Assembly (NCBI RefSeq): GCF_000744115.1
Contig: NZ_JQLG01000004.1
Location: 620,001-684,000, forward strand
Length of the DNA stretch: 64,000 nt
Direction: 5' to 3'
From: Carnobacterium alterfunditum DSM 5972
GTDB taxonomy: Bacteria; Bacillota; Bacilli; Lactobacillales; Carnobacteriaceae
The position numbers and the translations under genes were made by a program. Below the pieces are notes generated by a model. It ran no database searches. It had not been told where the DNA came from and worked only from the letters and a program-made list of their open reading frames with translations. Position 1 is the stretch's first letter, and each line of letters starts with the position of its first letter. Shown here in pieces: positions 2,634-44,392 of this stretch.

Positions 2634-3947
2634 TCACACTAAGATACTGAGTCTGCCTGTATCTATTTTTCCCTCAGATTTCAGTGTCTTTATTTCATTA
2701 TCTGAAATTTTTGCTTGTTTTTGTCCAAAAGTCCGTTTCTGCTCTTCTCCCTGTCTTTCTTGAGAAGCCGAATCAGCTGTTGCATGCTCGTTCAATTGAA
2801 TCGTTAATTCTCCTAAGCGAATGTTTTGGCGGTCTAAATTATCTGTTAACCGGTTCATACCACTTGTCAGTAATTCTCTCGTTTCAACGTTATCGACAAC
2901 GATTTTAGTCATCAGCACGTTGTCGATCAATTCTACTGTGATTCTCACTTCACCCATTTTTTCAGGTGATAAAGTCACATGTGCAATGGATTTTTTGCCG
3001 CTTAAAAGGGATTCAGCTTCTTGTATGATCACTTCGCTCACCAGCTGGATACTCGCTTGTTTGACCGATTCTACTACACTTGATTGCTTGATCGCTAAAG
3101 CTTCAACCATCGACTGCTGTTGGATTGGTTGCCCCTGCTGATCTACTTCAGCAATTTGTATGGATTGTTCGGTGCTTTCTAGATCTTTCATAAAAGAAAT
3201 GGGATTTTTAAGCAATTTTTCATTTGAGTTAAGTTCCGCTAAGCCTCCCAATTTGCTCTCGATTATATCCGATTTTGGTTGTTGCAGCTGCTCATTGTCG
3301 CTTATTGTTCCACTCAGTTCAATTGGTTGAACGGGTTCAGCTATGAGTTGGGTAATACCCATTCGTTCGTTTTTCCATTCCTCAGTCAAAAACCGTCCAG
3401 TTGGTAAAATCGTTCCACCCAGTTTATTTTCTTTCACAGTCACCAGAACCTGATTTGCTTCACTCGGATCAGATTCTTCCGCTAAAAGGTTATCCCCATT
3501 TTTTATAATTTGAGCCTTTTGATTATCCAGCATGCTAGCTTCTTTTTGATCAAAGGCGTCTATTTTTTCCGATTCATCTGCTACTTGTGCTGCAAAAACC
3601 GGTTCACTACTATTTAGTAGTTTGTCCACTTCAACTAGTGGCTGTTCACTATCATTCAGAGCACTTTTTACTGGTTGTTGCTCTTGTCTTGCGTTAAATG
3701 GCCCACTATAAAGCAGCGATGATTCTGAGGTAAGTATTTCCTCAGTTGGTTCCTCTTGACTGTCTTCATTTGTTTCTTCTTCAGGCATTTCTTTCGAACT
3801 TTCTTTATGTAACGTATGAGGTTTTTCTTTTGCTAAATACCCGGTAAATTGTGCTTTAAATTTTTCAGGACGTACTTCTTGCTGAAGCTTAGGTTTTAGT
3901 TGGATGCTATTACTACTGGCAGAAACAGGAGTTGGGTTCAATGTCAT
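2634..3947 (-). CDS. fliK: Flagellar hook-length control protein FliK
   Basis: FliK measures the hook and switches the export gate specificity from hook to filament subunits. The 437-residue product has a long low-complexity N-terminal part rich in Glu, Gln and Ser (the ruler). Its conserved C-terminal domain around residues 315-390 includes HVTLSPEKMGEVRI and LTDNLDRQNIRLGELTIQL. The C-terminal tail is charged and Gln-rich. I start at ATG 3947, which has AAGGAGG five bases upstream; the GTG at 3953 would overlap that site. It lies between fliJ and flgD as expected. Confidence 0.9.
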   Translation of the reverse strand: MTLNPTPVSASSNSIQLKPKLQQEVRPEKFKAQFTGYLAKEKPHTLHKESSKEMPEEETNEDSQEEPTEEILTSESSLLYSGPFNARQEQQPVKSALNDSEQPLVEVDKLLNSSEPVFAAQVADESEKIDAFDQKEASMLDNQKAQIIKNGDNLLAEESDPSEANQVLVTVKENKLGGTILPTGRFLTEEWKNERMGITQLIAEPVQPIELSGTISDNEQLQQPKSDIIESKLGGLAELNSNEKLLKNPISFMKDLESTEQSIQIAEVDQQGQPIQQQSMVEALAIKQSSVVESVKQASIQLVSEVIIQEAESLLSGKKSIAHVTLSPEKMGEVRITVELIDNVLMTKIVVDNVETRELLTSGMNRLTDNLDRQNIRLGELTIQLNEHATADSASQERQGEEQKRTFGQKQAKISDNEIKTLKSEGKIDTGRLSILV

Positions 3948-3998
3948 TTTCACCTCCTTTCAATGGATAATGGATCCACTTTCTAGTACCTATGTATA

Positions 3999-4433
3999 TT
4001 AATAAAAGGATTTTCCAAAACTTAAAGCTGCCATTTCATCTAATTGTTTTTGTTCATCTTGTTTTTCTTGTTCCATCGTAAAGGTGTATTCTTTTTCCCT
4101 TAACTTTTCCATAACTTTTCGGTCTTTATGGGCTTCCATTAATGCAATACGTGCCACTTCTACATTTTTTTCCGCTTTATTAACCACATTTTTTTGGTGA
4201 ATAATTTTTTCATCGATCATATCTTTGTATAAATTTTGACGCCGCAAAACATCGATACGACTAGTTGTTAAACTATCATTCTTTATTTTTATGTTTTCTC
4301 CTATCAATCGTTGTAAGATGGTTTCTTGTTGCAGTTTATTCTGTTGGACTTGTGCTAGATTCTTTTTCTTTTCTTCTTCAGTATCAGAACGCCAATCAAG
4401 AACTTTTTCCATTGAAAATGTATAGTTTGCCAC
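3999..4433 (-). CDS. fliJ: Flagellar export chaperone FliJ
   Basis: FliJ is the coiled-coil stalk of the FliI ATPase ring and escorts export chaperones. The product of about 144 residues is almost wholly charged helix, with heptad-like runs such as RLIGENIKIKNDSL and VVNKAEKNVEVARIALMEAHK. The start is taken as GTG at 4433 (MANYTFSMEKVLDWR) because other FliJ proteins begin with a short segment before the first helix; a GTG at 4442 is the alternative. It is directly downstream of fliI. Confidence 0.87.
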   Translation of the reverse strand: MANYTFSMEKVLDWRSDTEEEKKKNLAQVQQNKLQQETILQRLIGENIKIKNDSLTTSRIDVLRRQNLYKDMIDEKIIHQKNVVNKAEKNVEVARIALMEAHKDRKVMEKLREKEYTFTMEQEKQDEQKQLDEMAALSFGKSFY

Positions 4434-11504: not shown

Positions 11505-11555
11505 AATGAGCACTCCTTTCTTAACCGGTTAATCAATAAATCGTGTCAGTGTTTC

Positions 11556-11740
11556 AAAAGAAATTTCTTCTGGAATAAACGGGTCTGCTTGTGGAGAGCC
11601 ACGGGAACACCTGAAGCCTAAAAATAAATTTTCAGGCTTTCAAACTTCAAACACATCGTAATCGCTGAAGCGTTAACGCTGTGTAATTCTCATTGACTCC
11701 TTTACATGGCTACAAGCAATCCCTATTCCATGAGAAATTC
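11556..11740 (+). repeat. 180-bp foldback repeat, copy a
   Basis: First unit of a tandem doublet between the fliT-like gene and fliD. It opens with GAAATTTCTTCTGGAATAA and closes with an inverted, imperfect partner near 11722-11740. Inside are two hairpins: one built on CCTAAAAATAAATTTTCAGG-type sequence, the other on CGCTGAAGCG nested in an outer stem. The region 11514-12047 contains no gene; besides copies a and b it holds only AT-rich spacer. Confidence 0.8.
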
Positions 11741-11800
11741 TAAGTAAGTGATCCACCTGTTCTAGCAATACAAAAAGTAAGATTTATGATATTTCAATAA

Positions 11801-11982
11801 GAAATTTCTTCTGGAATAACGGATTTGCTTGTGGAGAGCCATGGGAACGCCTGAAGCCTGAAGAGAAAGTCTTCCGGCTTTCAAGCTTCAAACACAACGT
11901 AATCGCTGAAGCGTTAACGCTGTGTAATTCTCATTGAATCCTCTACATGGCTACAAGCAATCCCTATCCCATCAGAAATTTC
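11801..11982 (+). repeat. 180-bp foldback repeat, copy b
   Basis: Second unit of the doublet, starting 241 bases after copy a. Ends GAAATTTCTTCTGG and (inverted) GAAATTTCTGATGG are complementary. Internal hairpins AGCCTGAAGA/TCTTCCGGCT and CACAACGT/ACGCTGTG with an inner CGCT-GA-AGCG stem are visible. A flanking motif AAGTAAGT is also shared with copy a. Confidence 0.8.
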
Positions 11983-12047
11983 AAGTAAGTAATACACCTG
12001 ATCCACTAACTCTAAAAATGATAGACCTTCTTAAAATCTTAAACTAC

Positions 12048-18613: not shown

Positions 18614-18675
18614 GCCTTTGATCTAAAATAGTCGCCAGCAATTTAGTATTAATAGATCAGTTGGATCACTCATTT

Positions 18676-18856
18676 GAAATTTCTGGCGGAATAGGGTTGC
18701 TTGTAGCCATATTTTGGATTCAATGAGAATTATACAGCGTTGGCGCTTTAGCGATTACGCTGTGTTTGAAGCTTGAAAGCCGGAAGACGTTTTCTTTAGG
18801 CTGCAGGTGTTCCCATGGCTCTCCACAAGCAATCCCGTTATTCCAGAAGAAATTTC
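18676..18856 (-). repeat. 180-bp foldback repeat, copy c
   Basis: Same family as copies a and b but in the opposite orientation. Ends GAAATTTCTGGCGGAATAGG and GGAATAACGGGATTGC (reverse) are partly complementary. An inner stem ACAGCGT/ACGCTGT encloses CGCTTTAGCG. It is the first of a doublet between the flgM promoter and the fliY terminator; 18614-19204 has no gene. Confidence 0.8.
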
Positions 18857-18915
18857 TTTTGAATCATCATAAGTCGCTATTTTTAGTATTGAAAGACAAT
18901 TTGCATCACTCATTT

Positions 18916-19096
18916 GAAATTTCTGACGGAATAGGGTTGCTTGTAGCCATGTTTTGGATTCAATGTGAATTATACAGCGTTGGCGCTTTAGCGATTACGC
19001 TGTGTTTGAAGCTTGAAAGCCGGAAGACGTTCTCTTTAGGCTTCAGGTGTTCCCATGGCTCTCCACAAGCAATCCCGTTATTCCAGAAGAAATTTC
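18916..19096 (-). repeat. 180-bp foldback repeat, copy d
   Basis: Second unit, exactly 240 bp after copy c and nearly identical to it. The intervening bases before each unit are also related, so the doublet probably arose by tandem duplication of about 240 bp. Confidence 0.8.
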
Positions 19097-19204
19097 TTTT
19101 GAATCATTGACACTATTTATTAAACATGCTTATTTTATTATGTACATCCGTTCATGGACTAGACTCTTCTATACTAGCAATTGCTTTTCGATTATTCAAG
19201 CAAA

Positions 19205-29965: not shown

Positions 29966-31028
29966 TCTGATTTGTCAAATTAAGCTATACAAAATATCTT
30001 CATCCATGTAACTCATAAAAACTTCCAGCGGTGTTTGGTAATTTAATGACTTTCTTGGAATTATATTCCGTTTGTGTGCAACAGACGATACGAAAGCCTG
30101 ATCAACTTCGTTGAAATCCATTTCTTTTGGCAATCCATCTTTTCGAAGAAGCCCATTAGAATTCTCGTTTAAAGCTCGTTGTGAAGGCGTTCCAGGGTCA
30201 GCGAAGTAGATAGCGACATCATGCTGGTTGCACAAAGATTTCCAGTTGGAGAACTCCTTACCGCAATCAAAAGTAATGGATTTGAATAATTTTTTTGGTA
30301 TGGATTGGAACCATTGATTCATAGCACTCTCAATGTCGCAGGCTTTACGCCCTTTGGGCTTTAAGGTAATGATAGCTTTCGATAAAATCTCTACTAGAGT
30401 AATGACCGCACTTTTGTGGCGGACACCTACAATGGTATCTCCTTCGATATGACCAAATTCTTCTTTAAATGTTGGATAATCTATTATTCTTTCAGAGATA
30501 TTTCGTTTATAAGCTTGTCTACCTCTACGTTCTTGATGTCCGTTAGGCTTTCTTTTCCCTTTCATTGGAAGGGTAGCTTCATCGAATGTTTTTTCTTTAA
30601 ATTGTCTATAAAGTGTTCGTACGGAACAGTCTATTGTCATTTCTTTACGGCCAATAATGACATCAGGCGTCCAGCCTTCAGCTACTTTTTCCTTGATATA
30701 AAGATGTTGTTCTTCTGGTAAAACAACTTTTTCGCGTCCACACTGCTTCTTGTTTTTCTTATACCGTAGGTAATACTCGAAAGCTGTATGTCCTGCTCTG
30801 AAGAACCTGATAACATTATTAATCGGTGTTCGAGTACGATTCAAGTAAGCAGCTATTTTAGCAACTGGAATACCTTGATGGTAATAAGCTTCTATCATCA
30901 CTAGTTCATCCATGGTAATATGGGTATAGGTCATTTGTGATCACTCCTTGTTTTCTATGGTTGGAAATACAATTAGAGTGTATCACGAATGGCTTTTTTA
31001 TTTGTATAGCTTAATCTTACAATCCACG
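29966..31028 (-). mobile_element. IS30-family element, copy 1
   Basis: A complete 1063-bp element. Imperfect ends of about 28 bp share TTAAGCTATACAAA, and a 3-bp target duplication TTG is seen at 29963-29965 and 31029-31031. It differs from the other copies by one silent base at 30278 (G instead of T). It sits just upstream of the mcp promoter. Confidence 0.95.
29975..30934 (-). CDS. IS30-family transposase (copy 1)
   Basis: A 319-residue DDE transposase. N-terminal helix-turn-helix (YYHQGIPVAKIAAYLNRTRT) precedes the catalytic core. Acidic residues fall in FGHIEGDTIVG, SITFDCGKEFSNW and ALNENSNGLLRKDG. The reading frame is intact and the protein is identical in the four copies, so the element is probably active or only recently spread. 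Confidence 0.95.
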   Translation of the reverse strand: MTYTHITMDELVMIEAYYHQGIPVAKIAAYLNRTRTPINNVIRFFRAGHTAFEYYLRYKKNKKQCGREKVVLPEEQHLYIKEKVAEGWTPDVIIGRKEMTIDCSVRTLYRQFKEKTFDEATLPMKGKRKPNGHQERRGRQAYKRNISERIIDYPTFKEEFGHIEGDTIVGVRHKSAVITLVEILSKAIITLKPKGRKACDIESAMNQWFQSIPKKLFKSITFDCGKEFSNWKSLCNQHDVAIYFADPGTPSQRALNENSNGLLRKDGLPKEMDFNEVDQAFVSSVAHKRNIIPRKSLNYQTPLEVFMSYMDEDILYSLI

Positions 31029-31098: not shown

Positions 31099-32578
31099 CT
31101 ACCCGAAAACTAGACACTCAAAAAAAAGAGTGTTTTTAGTTTTTGGGTTATTTTTTTATTTTATTTTCGTTATACTTTAATAGAATTGTTTCTAAGTGGA
31201 GGTTTCTTTGATGAGCAAAAAATTATATACAGAATATGAAATAGAGATATTGCAAAAGAATCCTAATGTAAAATCAGCATCTTCAAAAAGCATTACCTAC
31301 TCACCTGTTTTTAAAATTAAAGCAGTAAAGGAAAGTAAGAGCGGAATGACCTCAACGGTCATATTTGAAAACGCTGGTCTGCCTGAAAATCTTCTAGGCA
31401 AAGGAAAAGCTCATAAATGTGTGGGTCGTTGGAAAAATAGTATGGCAATAAGAGGACAAGAAGGTTTCCATACTGAGACTCGCGGGAAAGGTACACGATC
31501 AGAAGGCGAAAAAATGGGATCTATCGAGGAGCAGTTGGAAGAAGCAAAAGCACGTATAGCTTATCTGGAAGGCAATTTGGAGTTAGTAAAAAAATTAGAA
31601 TTTCAAGGAAGGAGCGTGAAAAACGAAAAAGGAAACGTTCTGAAAACCCGTGAGCGGTATGAATTAATCAATTCAATCATAAGAGAATATAGTCTTAAAG
31701 GCATGGTTAAGTCTTTGTGTGAAATTGCCGAAGTTAGTCGTAGTGGTTATTATTATTGGAAGAACAATGAGGCCACACGTTATAAGAGGTACGAACAGGA
31801 CAGCAATGATTTCGAATTGCTTTATCAAGTATACATTGAGAAAAACAAATGTGGTGTAGAAGAAATAAAGATGGCATTAGAAGCTGAATATGATATCGTA
31901 ATGAACCATAAAAAAATTCGAAGAATCCTTCGAATCTACGGTATCATGTCGCCCATTAGAAAAGCTAAACCTTACAAGAAAATGATGAAGGCAACACAAG
32001 AACACAAAACCAAGAAGAATCTTGTTAATCGTGATTTTGATAGAGGAACGCCTTATAAAGTATTGCTTACTGATATTACATATTTACCTTACGGTAATAG
32101 CCAAATGGCCTACCTCTCTGCCGTTAAGGATGGTGCAACAGGAGAGATCGTTGCCCACCACTTCGCTACTTCTTTAAAGATGAATTTGGTTTATCAAACT
32201 TTAGAAAAATTAGAATGTATCACAAGTGATATGCCTGATACAGAAAGATACTTGCATTCTGATCAAGGCTTCCACTACACTAATCCTACATATCAAAGTA
32301 ATGTTGAAAAAATGGGATTTATACAATCCATGTCTAGAAGAGGTAACTGCTGGGATAATGCCCCAATGGAGTCCTTTTTTGGTCATATGAAGGACGTAGT
32401 CCTCTCAGAAAGACATGAAAACCTTCAGGGTTTGTGGAATTCTGTAGAAGAATATATTTCGTTTTACAATCATAGTCGTTATCAAAAAAAATTAAAGAAG
32501 ATGACCCCCGTTGCTTATCGGGATCATCTTCTTTGGACTGCATAATATCGTTTTTTTAAGTGTCTAGTTTAAAGGTAG
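31099..32578 (+). mobile_element. IS3-family element inserted in a terminator
   Basis: About 1480 bp bounded by inverted ends CTACC-N3-AAACTAGACACT. No target duplication could be recognised, so the exact outer bases are uncertain. It lies between the two arms of the aldo/keto reductase terminator hairpin. Confidence 0.8.
31211..32545 (+). CDS. IS3-family transposase, single frame
   Basis: A transposase of about 444 residues. It has an N-terminal helix-turn-helix region, a Glu/Ala-rich coiled segment (EEQLEEAKARIAYLEGNLEL), an HTH_21-like part (EIAEVSRSGYYYW) and an integrase core. Catalytic residues are in VLLTDITYLPYG, RYLHSDQGFHYTN and WDNAPMESFFGHMK. Most IS3 elements split these parts over two frames joined by frameshifting; here they are one frame. 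ATG 31211 has GGAGG eight bases upstream. Confidence 0.9.
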   Translation: MSKKLYTEYEIEILQKNPNVKSASSKSITYSPVFKIKAVKESKSGMTSTVIFENAGLPENLLGKGKAHKCVGRWKNSMAIRGQEGFHTETRGKGTRSEGEKMGSIEEQLEEAKARIAYLEGNLELVKKLEFQGRSVKNEKGNVLKTRERYELINSIIREYSLKGMVKSLCEIAEVSRSGYYYWKNNEATRYKRYEQDSNDFELLYQVYIEKNKCGVEEIKMALEAEYDIVMNHKKIRRILRIYGIMSPIRKAKPYKKMMKATQEHKTKKNLVNRDFDRGTPYKVLLTDITYLPYGNSQMAYLSAVKDGATGEIVAHHFATSLKMNLVYQTLEKLECITSDMPDTERYLHSDQGFHYTNPTYQSNVEKMGFIQSMSRRGNCWDNAPMESFFGHMKDVVLSERHENLQGLWNSVEEYISFYNHSRYQKKLKKMTPVAYRDHLLWTA

Positions 32579-32647: not shown

Positions 32648-33559
32648 TTATGGCAAAATATTTCCAGCAGCTAGATAGATCTCATACCATTCATCATGAG
32701 TCATCGTTACTTCAGAAGCTTTTGCATAACCTTTCAAGCGCTCTAATGTCATTGTTCCAACAACCGTTTGCATATGAGCAGGGTGACGTAGAATCCAAGC
32801 AACAGCCACAGCTGCATTAGACAAGCCGTAACGCTCACCGATTTCTTTCAATTTGGCATTCACTTCAGGATAGTTTTTATTATCTACGAAAATATCTCCA
32901 CCATCTTTTATTGGTGACCAAGCTTGCAAAGTAATATCCTCCAAACGACAATAATCCAATACTCCGCCATCGCGGTTTATCCCACTATCAAACTTCGTAT
33001 TCACATTGATCCCAGCATCCACCATGCCGGTGTGCTTCAAGCTAAATTGCATTTGATTCGCAACTAAGGGCTGTTTGACGTAACTTTTCAATAATTTAAT
33101 TTGATGAGGGTTATGATTGCTGACACCAAAGTTGCGTACTTTACCGCTTTTTTCCAATTCATCAAAAACTTCGGCTACAATTTCAGGTTCAACTAATGCA
33201 TCTGGACGGTGCAACAGCAGTACATCTAAATAATCTGTTTGCATACGTTTAAGGATACCGTCTACACTCTCAAGTAAATACTTTTTCGAAAAATCGTAAC
33301 TGTCTTTTCGAATACCTACTTTAGATTGAAGCAACATTCTTTCGCGGATAGCAGGGTCCATTTCAATGACCTTTCCAAAAATCTCTTCAGCTTTTCCTCC
33401 GCCGTAAATATCAGCTAAATCAAAAAAATCAATTTCTAAGTCCAATGCATTGTTAACTACTTTACTCGCTTCTTGAGGTGACAAATTGCCCATTGTCCAG
33501 CACCCTAATGCAATATTTGGCACCATTAATTCACTTTTTCCTAAAAACATTCTTTTCAT
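32648..33559 (-). CDS. Aldo/keto reductase
   Basis: A 303-residue NADPH-dependent oxidoreductase of the YdhF/YcsN-like branch. Family marks: N-terminal LGCWTMGN, catalytic Asp and Tyr in DFFDLADIYGGGKAEEIFGK, Lys in LLQSKVGIRK, His in DVLLLHRPDALVE. The cofactor loop includes QAWSPIKDGG and VVGTMTLERLKGYAKA. The substrate is unknown. Its terminator has been interrupted by an IS3-family element. Confidence 0.9.
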   Translation of the reverse strand: MKRMFLGKSELMVPNIALGCWTMGNLSPQEASKVVNNALDLEIDFFDLADIYGGGKAEEIFGKVIEMDPAIRERMLLQSKVGIRKDSYDFSKKYLLESVDGILKRMQTDYLDVLLLHRPDALVEPEIVAEVFDELEKSGKVRNFGVSNHNPHQIKLLKSYVKQPLVANQMQFSLKHTGMVDAGINVNTKFDSGINRDGGVLDYCRLEDITLQAWSPIKDGGDIFVDNKNYPEVNAKLKEIGERYGLSNAAVAVAWILRHPAHMQTVVGTMTLERLKGYAKASEVTMTHDEWYEIYLAAGNILP

Positions 33560-33683
33560 ATCTGTCAGCTCGCTTTCTTTCTATCTGAGAAATCGTTTTC
33601 AGTATACCACTCATAAACCTTTTTTACTAAAAAAAATATCTTCATGAGCTTAATCTCTGGAGTTGCTTTAAGTTAGATTCGTT

Positions 33684-33891
33684 GACGGAGAAGTGAGGAC
33701 ATTTCCATGGTCTACTTTTACATGGAACCTCGTTTGACGTAGGAGTAAACCCATTTTCACGTCTCACTCCTTCATGAACGGCCTATTGACGAAGGAGTTC
33801 GGAAGTTTTCTTGTTTCACTCTTTCGTACTAGACCGTTTCACGGAAGACTGTAGCTCCTTCTCTTCTCTACTCTTACATGAAAACTTATTC
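33684..33891. repeat. Array A: four 52-bp hairpin units
   Basis: Unit starts at 33684, 33736, 33788 and 33840 are exactly 52 bp apart. Each unit has a right arm like GACGNAGGAGT, a T-rich spacer, a left arm like ACTCNTTCRT and a ~13-base loop. Neighbouring arms are complementary, for example ACTCCTTCAT with ACGAAGGAGT. A degraded fifth unit may follow to about 33940. The rest of 33560-34011 is AT-rich spacer between divergent genes. Confidence 0.8.
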
Positions 33892-34011
33892 CCCGAAAAA
33901 AACATTTTCATGAACAACTCTCCCATTGAAATGAGGATATAAAAAATGACTTTTGCTATTTTCTTCTTATATTAAAGGAGAATGATCAAAATTAAGGAGC
34001 GCGATAAACTA

Positions 34012-34923
34012 ATGCTATTAAAAGAACGAACAAAATCGGTCACCCACCGCATCTTAGAATCTTTGAATTATCGAATGAATTTGCCGGATGAGGAAAAAAT
34101 AAAATATGAAAATCAATTAAAAGGTTTTGCTGGTGAAAAACAATTTGATGTTTGTATGAGTCGATCTCACCAGTCATGTCTCATATTGAACGATCTTGTT
34201 CTGACCCATAGAGATACTGTTTTTCAAATCGATTCCCTTCTCATCACGACTGATGCCGTCTATTTGTATGAAGTTAAAAATTATGCCAGTTCATACTTTT
34301 ATAGAGAAGAGTCATTTTTCACGGAATCGGGCTACAAAATCCTTAATCCCCTGAGACAAATCGACAGAAGTGTGACCTTTCTTTATAATGTGATGCTTAG
34401 TCTAGGGTACCGATTGCCGATACATCCTCTTATTGTTTTTATTGATCCAGAATTCAATCTTTACTCTCTGCTGCCAAACAAACTATTTCTATTTTCAAAT
34501 CAATTGCCTAAGCACCTTAACACCTTATCTGATCAAAATTTTTCAATCACAGATAAACAGGTGGAACTTGGGAAGAAATTAAAAGCGTTACATAATGAAA
34601 ATTATCGTCCCGATAATTTACCTATTTATCATTTCGATCAATTGCAGAAAGGAATCTTATGCCCCATTTGCTTCTCAACAAGCTATAGAGATACAAGACA
34701 AACTTACTTTTGTGCCGCATGCGGCCACAAAGAAACCATTATAAGTGCCATTGAGCGTAGTATTGTAGAATTTAGACTGCTCTTTCCTGAAAGCTTAATG
34801 ACGACAAATCGGATTTACCAATGGTGTGGAGCAATCTACTCTAAAGAACGGATCCGCGTGATCTTAAAAAAAAATTACCATCGTCATTTGTCCCGGCAGA
34901 TGACGTATTATAGTGAAAAGTAG
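34012..34923 (+). CDS. NERD-domain protein with zinc ribbon
   Basis: A protein of about 303 residues. The nuclease-related domain spans residues ~35-150 with GFAGEKQFDVCMS, VFQIDSLLITTDAVYLYEVKNY (Asp and Glu-x-Lys of a PD-(D/E)XK-like core) and LIVFIDPEFNLY. A C-terminal zinc ribbon has CPIC and CAAC. Such proteins are often linked to nucleic-acid processing, but the role here is unknown. The start is uncertain: ATG 33982 is only one base after AAAGGAG, ATG 34012 is 12 bases after AAGGAG. It is flanked on both sides by 52-bp hairpin arrays. Confidence 0.8.
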   Translation: MLLKERTKSVTHRILESLNYRMNLPDEEKIKYENQLKGFAGEKQFDVCMSRSHQSCLILNDLVLTHRDTVFQIDSLLITTDAVYLYEVKNYASSYFYREESFFTESGYKILNPLRQIDRSVTFLYNVMLSLGYRLPIHPLIVFIDPEFNLYSLLPNKLFLFSNQLPKHLNTLSDQNFSITDKQVELGKKLKALHNENYRPDNLPIYHFDQLQKGILCPICFSTSYRDTRQTYFCAACGHKETIISAIERSIVEFRLLFPESLMTTNRIYQWCGAIYSKERIRVILKKNYHRHLSRQMTYYSEK

Positions 34924-34957
34924 TCAACGCCATTTTTTTCCCGTTTGGCGCATGTTT

Positions 34958-35150
34958 CATGAAAGAGTGAAAGCCTTTCTAGGGTCTACTTCTACGAGCA
35001 GCCTCATTTGACGTAGAAGTAAACATATTTTCATGTCTTACTCATTCGTTAGTACCCTGTTGACGAATGAGTTGACACTATTTCCTACCTTACTTTTACG
35101 TGGAAGGTTATTTCACGAATGAGTGCGTATCACAGCCTCACTAAATCACC
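34958..35150. repeat. Array B: four 52-bp hairpin units
   Basis: Units start at 34958, 35010, 35062 and 35114, exactly 52 bp apart. Perfect stems occur: ACTTCTACG with CGTAGAAGT, and ACTCATTCGT with ACGAATGAGT. The array fills the gap between the convergent NERD gene and NCS2 permease gene. Confidence 0.82.
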
Positions 35151-35217
35151 AACTCATTAAAGCTAAAAAAAACGTTCACCACTCCTAAATCAGAGTGATG
35201 AACGTTTTGCTGTTTGA

Positions 35218-36492
35218 TTAAATTGTTTCGCTTTCTAGTGCTGGTTTTTCTTTCAAAATAATGTTCAAAAATAAGGTAACGATCGTTCCAGCGGAAATCC
35301 CTGATGAAAATAATCCACCAAGAATTCCTGGCAACCCGGCTACTACTTCAGGCCGGAAAGCCACGCCAAGTCCAACACCTAATCCGGCAGCGACAATGAT
35401 CAGATTGCGGTTGTCAAAATTCACACGAGACAATGATTTCACGCCAGACGCGGCTACGTTGCCGAACATCAGAACTCCTGCTCCACCTAGAACAGCCATT
35501 GGCATGATCGATACAAGTGTCGCAAATTTAGGCAAGAAACTCATTAACATCAATAGAACACCGGCTGCGATCGCAACTGAGCGAGAGGCATTTCGCGTTA
35601 AAGGGATCAATCCAGCATTTTGGCTAAAAGTCGCCACCGGGCCTGACCCAATCGCCGGTCCAATAAATGACCCGACTCCATCAGCACGGACACCATTTGC
35701 AATATCATCATCGGTTAATTCGGTTTCTGTTACCACACCAATAGTCTGCATCACACCCACTGTTTCAATAACTGTTACTAAGTAGCCTGAGATAAATGGA
35801 ATAGCAAATTTCAAATCAAAACTCACACCATATTTAAAGAGCTGCGGCATAGCGAACCAATTAGCTCGAGTTACTTGACCGAAATCAACCATTCCAAGCG
35901 GGATACACATCACATAACCAACAACGATCCCGATCAGTACTGCTGCAGGCCCGATTTTCGAACTCCCATAATGATTCAGTATAACAATGATCAAAAATAC
36001 AATTGTAGCAATCGTTAAGTTAAGCAGTGAACCATAGTTAGCTGATCCTACTCCACCGGCTACCCAATCAAAGGCAACAGGCATCAACGTTAATCCCATC
36101 AGTGAAATAACGGTCCCTGTTACGGCTGTCGGAAAAAATTTCATTAAAGGTTTAATAAAATAACTTAAGCTGATCTCTAAAACGGCTCCCATCATGGTCC
36201 CACCAAAATAACCAGCTATCCCTCCACCCATTGTATTGATGACTGCATTTGCTGGACCGACGAAACCAAAATCGGTTCCCATGATCGTTGGAAGACCGGC
36301 TCCTACACGAAACCACTTCGGCCCGATTCCTTTGGATTGAATGATTGAAACAACGCCCGAACCCAACAAGGCTGCACTGATCATATAAGAAGTATCTGCG
36401 ACCCCAAATCCTGCAATACCAGAGATCACTAAGGGCACAGCTACGATCCCGCCAAAAGCAGTCAGTATATTTTGAAATCCTAAGAGAGTCAT
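35218..36492 (-). CDS. NCS2-family nucleobase permease (xanthine/uric acid type)
   Basis: A membrane transporter of at least 424 residues with about 12-14 membrane segments. NCS2 marks: FGFVGPANAVINTMGGG, ETVGVMQTIGVVTE (conserved Glu) and GPAIGSGPVATFSQNAG (the family signature). ATG 36492 is used here. However, the upstream frame stays open and encodes PESNLIYQVDDKPGFFL, the normal lead-in to membrane helix 1, without a usable start. A one-base shift near 36550-36575 would join it to a TTG with a good ribosome site. Confidence 0.85.
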   Translation of the reverse strand: MTLLGFQNILTAFGGIVAVPLVISGIAGFGVADTSYMISAALLGSGVVSIIQSKGIGPKWFRVGAGLPTIMGTDFGFVGPANAVINTMGGGIAGYFGGTMMGAVLEISLSYFIKPLMKFFPTAVTGTVISLMGLTLMPVAFDWVAGGVGSANYGSLLNLTIATIVFLIIVILNHYGSSKIGPAAVLIGIVVGYVMCIPLGMVDFGQVTRANWFAMPQLFKYGVSFDLKFAIPFISGYLVTVIETVGVMQTIGVVTETELTDDDIANGVRADGVGSFIGPAIGSGPVATFSQNAGLIPLTRNASRSVAIAAGVLLMLMSFLPKFATLVSIMPMAVLGGAGVLMFGNVAASGVKSLSRVNFDNRNLIIVAAGLGVGLGVAFRPEVVAGLPGILGGLFSSGISAGTIVTLFLNIILKEKPALESETI

Positions 36493-37230: not shown

Positions 37231-38097
37231 TTATTCAGCTGATTGGCTGGTTTGAATTCGGTATTCTACCGGACTTAAGCCAGCCAATTTTGCTTTTGAT
37301 CGAACATGATTATACCATTCGATATATTCTTCAATTCTTGATTTCAATTCCTCATAACTGACTAATTTCTCCCCATGATACATTTCTTGTTTTAGGATGC
37401 CGAAGAAATTTTCTATTGCCGCATTATCTGCACAAGTCGCCTTGCGAGACATACTCTGAAAAACGTTATTTTTCTTTAGTGTTTTGACCCAATGATTATG
37501 CTGATACTGCCAACCTTGATCAGAATGAAGAGTGGTACGAACCGTGGCGTATTCTTTAAGCATGCCGATGGCTTCTTCCAAAGGTTTCATCACTAAGTCC
37601 AGGATAGGTCGTTTATTTATTCCATAAGCTATCACTTCACTATTAAATAGATCTAGAATAGGACTAAGGTAGAGCTTTTCTCCGCCTGTACATTTAAACT
37701 CTGTCACGTCGGTGACGAGCTTCTGTAAAGTGATGGATGTAGAGAAGCGTCTATTTAACTTATTCTTGGCAATAGTGCCTACTTTTCCTTTATAAGAGTT
37801 ATATTTCCGAGATTTTCTAATAAATTTAACACACTTCAAACCCATTTCTTTCATGAGACGATAAACTTTCTTGTGATTGACACTATAACCTAGTTTCTTC
37901 AGTTCATTTGTAATGCGTTTGTATCCAAATCGCTCTTTGAACTGAAAGAAAAGTTGTTCAATCTGTTCTTTTAGTCGCTGATTACTATCTATTTTTTTTA
38001 ATTGCTTTACGTAATAGTGATAGGTTGACTCTGGAATACCCACCACCAGAAGGATATCTTTTAGTTTGAATCCTTCTTCTTTAAGTTCGTATGCCAC
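37231..38097 (-). CDS. IS3-family transposase OrfB (integrase part)
   Basis: The 288-residue catalytic part with VTDVTEFKCTGGEKLYL, TTLHSDQGWQYQHNHW and ADNAAIENFFGILKQEMYHG (the DDE triad). The frame is open upstream of the GTG at 38097 as far as the slippery AAAAAAG at 38157-38151, so it is likely made as an OrfAB fusion by -1 frameshifting. Confidence 0.92.
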   Translation of the reverse strand: MAYELKEEGFKLKDILLVVGIPESTYHYYVKQLKKIDSNQRLKEQIEQLFFQFKERFGYKRITNELKKLGYSVNHKKVYRLMKEMGLKCVKFIRKSRKYNSYKGKVGTIAKNKLNRRFSTSITLQKLVTDVTEFKCTGGEKLYLSPILDLFNSEVIAYGINKRPILDLVMKPLEEAIGMLKEYATVRTTLHSDQGWQYQHNHWVKTLKKNNVFQSMSRKATCADNAAIENFFGILKQEMYHGEKLVSYEELKSRIEEYIEWYNHVRSKAKLAGLSPVEYRIQTSQSAE

Positions 38098-38627
38098 TGC
38101 TGCTTGTGCTTTTCGAGAAAGACGTCGGGATTCTTCTGAAAAGCTTTCAACTTTTTTAAATAGGCATTCTCCAATTTCAGTAGTTCAATTTCTCGTTCTA
38201 ATTCTTGTCTAGAACAATCTGCTGATGTGCCTGGTTTCAGTTGCTGTTTTTTTGGTTTTTTAGTCATTGAAGGACGCCCCTTTGGGTGTGGTTTTAGGCC
38301 TTCAATTCCCTTGCCTTGGAAAGCTTGATTCCAATTTGCGATAAGGGAAGGATTATTCATGCCGAAGGTAATGGCTGTATCTGAATAAGAAGTGCCTGTC
38401 TGTTTTATAAAGTGTAATACATCTACCTTAAATTGAACAGAGTAAGCTGCTTTCGTCTGTTTCCTTTTTAAACCGTCCAAACCAAGTTTTCGGTATGCCT
38501 TTACCCAATTATTAAGGGGAGTTGTAGAGGAAAGAGCATATTTCTTCGCTAGTAATTGAAAGCCCAAAGGGCCGTTTAGATACTCTTGAACAACTTGTAA
38601 CTTAAATTCTTCACTATATTTTGTCAT
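38061..38627 (-). CDS. IS3-family transposase OrfA
   Basis: A DNA-binding part of about 188 residues with two helix-turn-helix regions (KYSEEFKLQVVQEYLNG, and AITFGMNNPSLIANWNQAF). A leucine-zipper-like helix follows (QELEREIELLKLENAYLKKL). The slippery heptamer A-AAA-AAG falls in that helix. ATG 38627 is preceded by a G-rich site. Confidence 0.9.
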   Translation of the reverse strand: MTKYSEEFKLQVVQEYLNGPLGFQLLAKKYALSSTTPLNNWVKAYRKLGLDGLKRKQTKAAYSVQFKVDVLHFIKQTGTSYSDTAITFGMNNPSLIANWNQAFQGKGIEGLKPHPKGRPSMTKKPKKQQLKPGTSADCSRQELEREIELLKLENAYLKKLKAFQKNPDVFLEKHKQQWHTNLKKKDSN

Positions 38628-38728
38628 AAAAACAACCCCCAAAAGTTTAGATTTCACTCTAACTTTTGGGGGTCGCTACCTAAGCAGACTCTTACTGTAT
38701 AATCTATCATTTTTAATGTTTGTTTTTA

Positions 38729-44191: not shown

Positions 44192-44372
44192 CATAGCGGA
44201 GTAAGAATTTTTTCTTGCTTCACTTTCACGTGAAAACGACTTTGACCAAAGAGTGATGACTTTTTTTAGTCTCACTCTTTGGTACCGGGCTGTTTCATAA
44301 GGGAGTGATACTAATATGCCGCTCTACTTGTTCATAAAAAGTCCTTTGATGAACAAGTGGCTCCCGTGGCTC
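44192..44372. repeat. Array C: four 52-bp hairpin units
   Basis: Units start at 44192, 44244, 44296 and 44348, exactly 52 bp apart. Perfect pairs: ACCAAAGAGT with ACTCTTTGGT inside unit 2 (extended by GACT/AGTC), and ACTTGTTCAT with ATGAACAAGT between units 3 and 4. It lies between the 92-residue gene and pepF in a 660-base gap without a gene. Confidence 0.82.
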
Positions 44373-44392
44373 CCGTGGCTCCCGTGCCTCCC
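44358..44392 (+). repeat. 9-bp tandem repeat
   Basis: Three perfect copies of TGGCTCCCG and a degenerate fourth, directly after the last right arm of array C. The GC content is far above the neighbourhood. Confidence 0.85.

Follow-up and report, generated by a model that had tools for sequence, protein, structure and literature searches.

Helically spaced inverted-arm arrays beside a NERD zinc-ribbon nuclease gene of Carnobacterium alterfunditum point to a two-part repeat system

The locus considered here lies in a 64-kb stretch of the Carnobacterium alterfunditum DSM 5972 genome, called the window throughout, whose coordinates are collected in Table 1. Array A occupies a divergent gap. On one side of it is a gene that resembles aldo/keto reductases, a name given by eye; on the other is a gene for a protein that joins a NERD domain to four cysteines resembling a zinc ribbon, beyond which lies a second array, B. 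The units of array A start at 33684, 33736, 33788 and 33840, in exact 52-bp steps, and each is composed of a right arm, a 19-nt spacer, a left arm and a 13-nt loop, with 10-bp arms in inverted orientation. This confirms an earlier note on the same DNA, which had described four units at exact 52-bp spacing with a T-rich spacer, here fixed at 19 nt, and a loop of about 13 bases. Arrays B and C share this layout with A, and their 137-bp segments (34988-35124 and 44222-44358) are laid out identically without gaps. When array A was searched against the window with nhmmer, B was recovered at E=8e-18 and C at 5e-8, both beyond chance, and successive copies within arrays A-C are about 60% identical. 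The three arrays were not reported in a TRF run on the window, no family came close to its gathering score in an Rfam scan of 33500-35300, and no match was obtained when a plasmid collection was searched with the array for distant DNA similarity.

Table 1. Positions of the arrays, their units and the NERD gene in the window
Feature	Position	Strand	Description
Array A	33684..33891	none	Three full units with inverted arms, flanked by two half units; repeats exactly every 52 bp
Array A, end arms	33685-33694; 33870-33879		Orphan right arm; last left arm
Array A, unit 1 (HP1)	33714..33746	none	Arms ACTTTTACAT / ACGTAGGAGT
Array A, unit 2 (HP2)	33766..33798	none	Arms ACTCCTTCAT / ACGAAGGAGT
Array A, unit 3 (HP3)	33818..33850	none	Arms ACTCTTTCGT / ACGGAAGACT
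NERD (PF08378) and four-cysteine zinc-ribbon-like nuclease gene	33982..34923	+	313 aa; proposed partner of the arrays
Array B	34959..35124	none	Orphan right arm 34959-34968; units at 34988, 35040, 35092
Array C	44193..44358	none	Orphan right arm 44193-44202; units at 44222, 44274, 44326

Other repeats and mobile genes are also found in the window. Array C passes straight into a 9-bp tandem repeat, GTGGCTCCC, present in four copies at 44357-44392. Two imperfect tandem duplications of about 240 bp (11552-12000 and 18642-19107) resemble part of a second, commoner dispersed repeat, and a stretch of locus L064 that looks similar to them by eye has dozens of matches in genomes G001 and G004. Transposase-like ORFs surround the NERD region at 29975-30934, 31196-32545 and 37231-38657, and are IS30-like or IS3-like as judged by eye only.

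At the protein level, the product of the NERD gene matches PF08378 at E 1e-17 and shows a weak zinc-ribbon match over its four cysteines; with regard to its start, several homologues begin near an internal ATG at 34012. The NERD domain was matched by 34/34 proteins of the family, and a HuH domain sought in the same 34 was found in none, one member weakly matching a transposase zinc-ribbon model. In an alignment of 78 proteins, all of at least 250 aa and free of internal stops over the aligned region, E52, Q82, D84, E97 and K99, together with C227, C230, C244 and C247, are 94-100% conserved, and we take the first five to be arranged like a PD-(D/E)XK active site. The final 60 residues, beyond the zinc ribbon, may be a DNA-reading part of the protein. 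AlphaFold2 models reached a pLDDT of 34.6 with one sequence and 39.3 with two, too poor for a fold search, and a profile search of solved structures with the protein returned weak matches only, mostly to zinc ribbons.

The gene is recurrent among relatives and beyond: matches were obtained in 21/59 relatives (E 1e-3), in at least 51/299 genomes of the class (E 1e-8) and in 9/398 genomes of a phylum sample (E 1e-15), six of these nine belonging to the class of the window. A search of phage records gave no match and one of plasmid records a single weak match, while five single-protein scans of viral contigs, seeded by exact peptide patterns, detected no relative; from these three results the gene looks chromosomal. 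Copies per genome range from several to many and are divergent, with 11 matches in G035 and 8 in G048, some of them fragments. In its own genome, a second NERD gene (C4:112908) has an array family of its own at 14 places, its own locus included and the last three weak, and a third NERD gene, in pieces, lies beside a 53-bp array (L156). An internal stop interrupts the window-type gene in two further species (G001:C8:1101368-1102302 and G002:C2:2111521-2112456). The arrays persist in both genomes despite the interrupted gene and appear no more decayed, so that these two species offer a natural test of the role of the enzyme in array maintenance.

The association between arrays and NERD genes extends well beyond the window. 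The homologue in G009, 48% identical, lies in a different neighbourhood and again has arrays on both sides, of 7 and 9 units. A more distant homologue (36% identical) from Robertmurraya (L049), also of the class Bacilli, was found by a protein search that used no arrays; it is preceded by about nine 52-bp units that end some 140 bp before the gene, unrelated in sequence to the window arrays and with dispersed copies also in Robertmurraya. This case prompted a general test, in which the best short-period self-match over 90 bp was sought within 1.5 kb on either side of each homologous gene at lags of 35-79, with a threshold of 0.556 identity. Of the 90 loci, drawn from 12 families, 79 pass this threshold (71 reach 0.6 and 49 reach 0.8), the array being downstream in 44, upstream in 24 and on both sides in 11. 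Six of the 79 stay under 0.58 (L160, L170, L182, L230, L231 and L235), L170 passing at lag 39 only. Among the eleven failing loci, L172 has a strong 103-bp repeat, L140, L178 and L188 give weak signals (51, 52 or 102 bp), and the remaining seven show no repeat signal. In these counts, a gene's second fragment and a handful of weak entries among the relatives' matches were not taken as separate loci, and L194 and L195 (the same as L151 and L147), L246-L249, L251 and L256 were omitted as repeats, as was L268, a fragment of the L156 gene.

As controls, 187 pieces were scanned at lags of 18-79, comprising 39 from the window, 12 at dnaA and 136 ends of array loci. Eight of them reached 0.556, two at exactly that value; the other six proved to be true 52-bp arrays, situated beside the second NERD gene, at two dispersed copies of its array (L065 and L113), and at three places in G009. 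Class-wide loci fetched after the idea had been formed all pass (28/28 among the matches listed, three of them at 0.556-0.567), as do 14/14 new loci that the phylum scan added for the class, examined at lags from 18, one at exactly 0.556. Three loci outside the class, which match mainly in the NERD part, have no short-period array. At the level of whole genomes, window-type arrays occur in 9/21 genomes with the NERD gene, two of them weakly, vs 0/38 genomes without it.

The periods of these arrays are also informative. The best periods of the 79 passing loci fall at 39-42 (18 loci), 49-53 (60 loci) and 63 bp (one locus), to which the phylum set adds 20-21 bp and, weakly, 31 bp, so that the array periods correspond roughly to 2-6 turns of B-DNA. 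For the 49 strong arrays, whose lineages are not independent, a Rayleigh scan gives R = 0.92 at 10.5 bp and peaks at 10.75 bp with a value no higher (0.92), so that the helical repeat length is poorly fixed. Spacing near whole turns is what would be expected of sites read on duplex DNA. The remark in the earlier note that 52 bp approximates five helical turns is therefore borne out, as periods beside homologous genes cluster near whole turns. Distant NERD branches (L229, L250, L258, L259, L262, L263, L266 and L267) show a 20-21-bp period or sub-period, and their 20-21-bp arrays resemble iterons in length.

Away from the NERD genes, the array family was followed with a covariance model (R1) built from seven seed arrays and searched against the own genome and 59 others, a kind of search that the earlier note had proposed. 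It gave 33 matches on both strands of the own genome, one at chance level, which correspond to 15 places, all within about 540 kb of the window's NERD gene; the seven seeds match by construction, and the best non-seed matches have E=1e-19 and 2e-18. Nine of the 59 genomes were matched, namely all six of the genus, G009 (another genus of the same family) and, weakly, G016 and G035. In stretches drawn from 15 genomes, a unit scanner detected 245 units in 71 loci vs 29 in base-shuffled copies, usually two or three per array in the home genus and up to eleven in G009. As many as 41/59 genus array loci have an orthologous array in another species, which indicates that spread is slow or old, and in three pairs the orthologous arrays differ in length by 52, 52 and 53 bp, that is, by whole-unit indels between species. 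By crude ORF calls, the flanking genes are convergent for 32/49 genus arrays, tandem for 10 and divergent for 6, and a single array falls inside an ORF; for comparison, 10/62 gene pairs of the window are convergent. Genus arrays lie mostly to one side of dnaA, a one-replichore band that is partly explained by clustering around the NERD gene and by shared descent of positions. The earlier note had also offered a mobile structural element as a possibility, and this is possible, though with indirect support only. Of the marks of an insertion sequence or MITE, neither a clean empty site nor a target duplication was found in the one case considered, L064: sequence from five species has no array where the corresponding gene ends, but the neighbours there are rearranged. 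Among L063, L069, L075, L079 and L092, near 3800-4350, several arrays begin shortly after a terminator whose double hairpin is TTGATGAT...ATCATCA-like, and the arm sequence itself forms a terminator-like hairpin at the end of several.

Within the arms, the frame ACT....CRT is kept across species and the core is species-specific, as exemplified by ACTCTTCCAT in G001 and G002, ACTGTATCGT in G005 and ACTTGTTCAC in G009. Complementarity of core pairs, scored out of 4, averages 2.48 within a hairpin, 2.36 across the spacer and 1.66 between different arrays. When the two possible partners of a right arm were compared head-to-head, the one across the 13-nt loop and the one across the 19-nt spacer each won 45 times, with 17 ties, and only in G005 does spacer pairing beat loop pairing, by 8 to 1. 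Hairpin-specific covariation was considered and rejected: pair counts on the seven seed arrays looked convincing, but the segments compared had been placed by their hairpins, and on chains chosen by consensus alone pairing across the 19-nt spacer is equally good. Accordingly, of the covarying arms that the earlier note had described, the excess of matching within over between arrays stands, and the specificity for hairpins does not; the correlation of the arms is array-wide and species-wide. An excess of G-U over A-C mismatches, a signature of RNA, was sought after arrays had been oriented by spacer composition and was seen neither in the genus (118 v 126 and 72 v 80) nor in G009 (37 v 38 and 30 v 30). 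It is important to consider as well that the units are near-palindromic and the covariance model consequently scores both strands, so that its success is no evidence for RNA. In a shuffle test, from which one array with an N in its consensus was dropped, the inverted arms of the unit consensus were better than 60 shuffles at p 0.05 in 43/78 arrays, and among arrays with 38-43-bp periods in 6/18 only. The arms thus look less like an RNA hairpin than like a recognition sequence that has changed in concert.

Array sequences and arms vary from one NERD lineage to another, even where the lineages share a genome, and array similarity follows that of the nuclease: across 67 loci, protein identity and array similarity are correlated with a Mantel r of 0.34, a value reached in 0/2000 permutations. 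Dispersed arrays also tend to lie near their own gene. In a test that left out G005, dropped arrays within 3 kb of the gene and merged those within 2 kb of each other, 20/48 dispersed arrays of the first family and 14/43 of the second lie within 125 kb of their own NERD gene, with 4.7 and 4.2 expected, compared with 8/39 and 6/43 around the other NERD gene. The median distance of the first family is short in G001, G002, G003 and G004 (p 0.0002 to 0.025). For the second family clustering is significant in one of four genomes, G004, and in the own genome it is significant for neither family (p 0.08 for the first and 0.46 for the second); the species in these comparisons are not independent.

These observations suggest, with a rough probability of 0.57, that array A is one of the dispersed site arrays belonging to the adjoining NERD zinc-ribbon nuclease, the two forming a REPtron-like pair whose nuclease would read its array on duplex DNA and drive the local spread of the array. 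The NERD protein would probably recognise its own arm sequence in duplex DNA, and the whole-turn spacing of the units would put successive sites on one face of the helix, so that several molecules could line up. A nuclease activity of the PD-(D/E)XK type may then cause units and arrays to be gained, lost and homogenised and to spread locally into intergenic sites. The enzyme would be unrelated to TnpA-REP, for which a similar action on REP sequences is proposed. Among the guesses made in the earlier note, that of inverted protein-binding half-sites fits best, given the helical periods, the kept arm frame with its species-specific core and the way in which array similarity follows that of the neighbouring nuclease. 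That note made no link between the arrays and the gene lying between A and B. A further-reaching version, which we hold tentatively and at slightly less than even odds, is that these pairs are genome parasites or domesticated elements, in which a PD-(D/E)XK-type NERD nuclease, in place of a HuH transposase or integrase, would read duplex arrays of inverted sites at whole-turn spacing and copy or homogenise them with a preference for the vicinity of its own gene, fast co-evolution of protein and recognition sequence producing a lineage-specific code.

The main rival is a host function, in which the NERD protein and the arrays would form a chromosome-organising, segregation or regulatory system whose arrays are kept by host selection. 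The orthology of 41/59 genus array loci between species, the position of 32/49 arrays between convergent genes compared with 10/62 gene pairs of the window, the concentration on one replichore and the chromosomal look of the gene in the phage, plasmid and viral-contig searches would all suit such a role. Divergent NERD copies with different arms, several of them with internal stops, are nevertheless odd for a core function, and the conservation of the catalytic residues also counts against it; we regard this explanation as unlikely, with a real minority chance. Conserved nuclease residues and the diversity of the pairs could be read as the marks of a defence or conflict system, with the nuclease directed against incoming DNA and the arrays serving to mark, titrate or train it. 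Weak similarity to PglW and MAD6 models is seen in 20/34 members, and Cas10 and Cas4 models are weakly matched by a few. These weak matches may merely reflect the NERD domain, however, and the window protein has no match among PADLOC and NCBIfam models at E 0.01, which leaves such a role improbable.

An even smaller chance is given to arrays that are transcribed and act as folded RNA. The complementary arms, the compensating differences between arrays and the terminator-like hairpins in which several arrays end would agree with a structured RNA family, but G-U and A-C mismatches are equally frequent, no pairing register is preferred, helical-turn spacing is a feature of duplex DNA, and no Rfam family corresponds; the structured-RNA guess of the earlier note is thus not upheld. 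Passive repeats, that is, tandem arrays generated by slippage and palindrome correction and persisting near the NERD gene by chance, are comparably improbable. They would account for the whole-unit indels between species, and arms can come to match through template switching with no selection involved, but it would be left unexplained why the arrays are linked to one gene family, why their arms are specific to lineages and why their periods are helical.

The pairing of NERD nucleases with their arrays, the reading favoured here, invites comparison with REPtrons, in which, by the available text of their descriptions, an enzyme gene that is chromosomal and for the most part immobile adjoins its own repeats, copies of which occur over the genome (PMC8266576, PMC2817692). 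Like REP/RAYT (TnpA-REP) systems, as far as those texts describe them, NERD arrays are dispersed, intergenic and palindromic (1/49 inside an ORF, by crude gene calls), and a dedicated nuclease-type gene is flanked by its own repeats, here mostly on one side, with which it has co-diversified, and behaves as chromosomal. In contrast to the HuH (Y1) tyrosine transposase of RAYT, the NERD protein has PD-(D/E)XK-like residues and a zinc ribbon; unlike REP sequences, its arrays have exact periods near whole helical turns, occupy about 15 places per genome instead of hundreds and carry no constant GTAG or CGTC tag at the palindrome. On either strand, GTAG is present in 78/236 units and CGTC in 105/236, GTAG being nearly absent in G001, G003, G005 and G009. 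With regard to the REPtron trait of recognition as a single-stranded hairpin, NERD arrays show no preferred hairpin register. Since both the HuH enzyme and the tag fail, NERD arrays are not a REPtron member, and a separate system is proposed. CRISPR shares with them a regular array, partly palindromic units, variable stretches and an adjoining nuclease gene, but the stretches between the arms of NERD arrays are not unique, neighbouring units being up to 98-99% alike in G009 and Robertmurraya. Short intergenic stem-loop families offer other parallels: BOX and Bcr1 are of this kind, BOX being modular with a variable number of units, and EFAR is a further repeat family of Enterococcus faecalis akin to NERD arrays. 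We know of no cognate nuclease for BOX or Bcr1, which are set apart from NERD arrays by description only. Pneumococcal BOX and Bcr1 are named in tables of a source whose available part also describes the Efa-1 repeats of Enterococcus faecalis as intergenic, with two adjacent stem-loops, a listed size of 163 and 65 members (PMC2267715). Efa-1 repeats and NERD arrays are both intergenic stem-loops, and they are set apart by description only, no partner gene of Efa-1 being mentioned in that part.

The majority of the related genes examined have their own array beside them, and this points towards a two-part repeat system that has not been described; the openly accessible literature, within which the search was made (subscription journals falling mostly outside its scope), contained no description of the NERD-array pair and, on related repeats, yielded just the analogues compared above. 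The NERD domain is widespread. According to the available text of a 2022 paper, its function had received no experimental study before that paper's own mutants, which concern SmdA of Staphylococcus aureus, a membrane-anchored division protein with partial NERD-domain similarity that is without several of the most conserved NERD residues (PMC9040797). The NERD zinc-ribbon branch is now tied to specific DNA sequences through dozens of protein-array pairs that are directly testable. If the further-reaching version above is true, the NERD domain would gain a defined DNA target. If recognition of the arms is true, these pairs would constitute a natural library of protein-DNA specificities, would mean that the REPtron way of life arose a second time, and would account for a class of intergenic repeats that have lacked an explanation.
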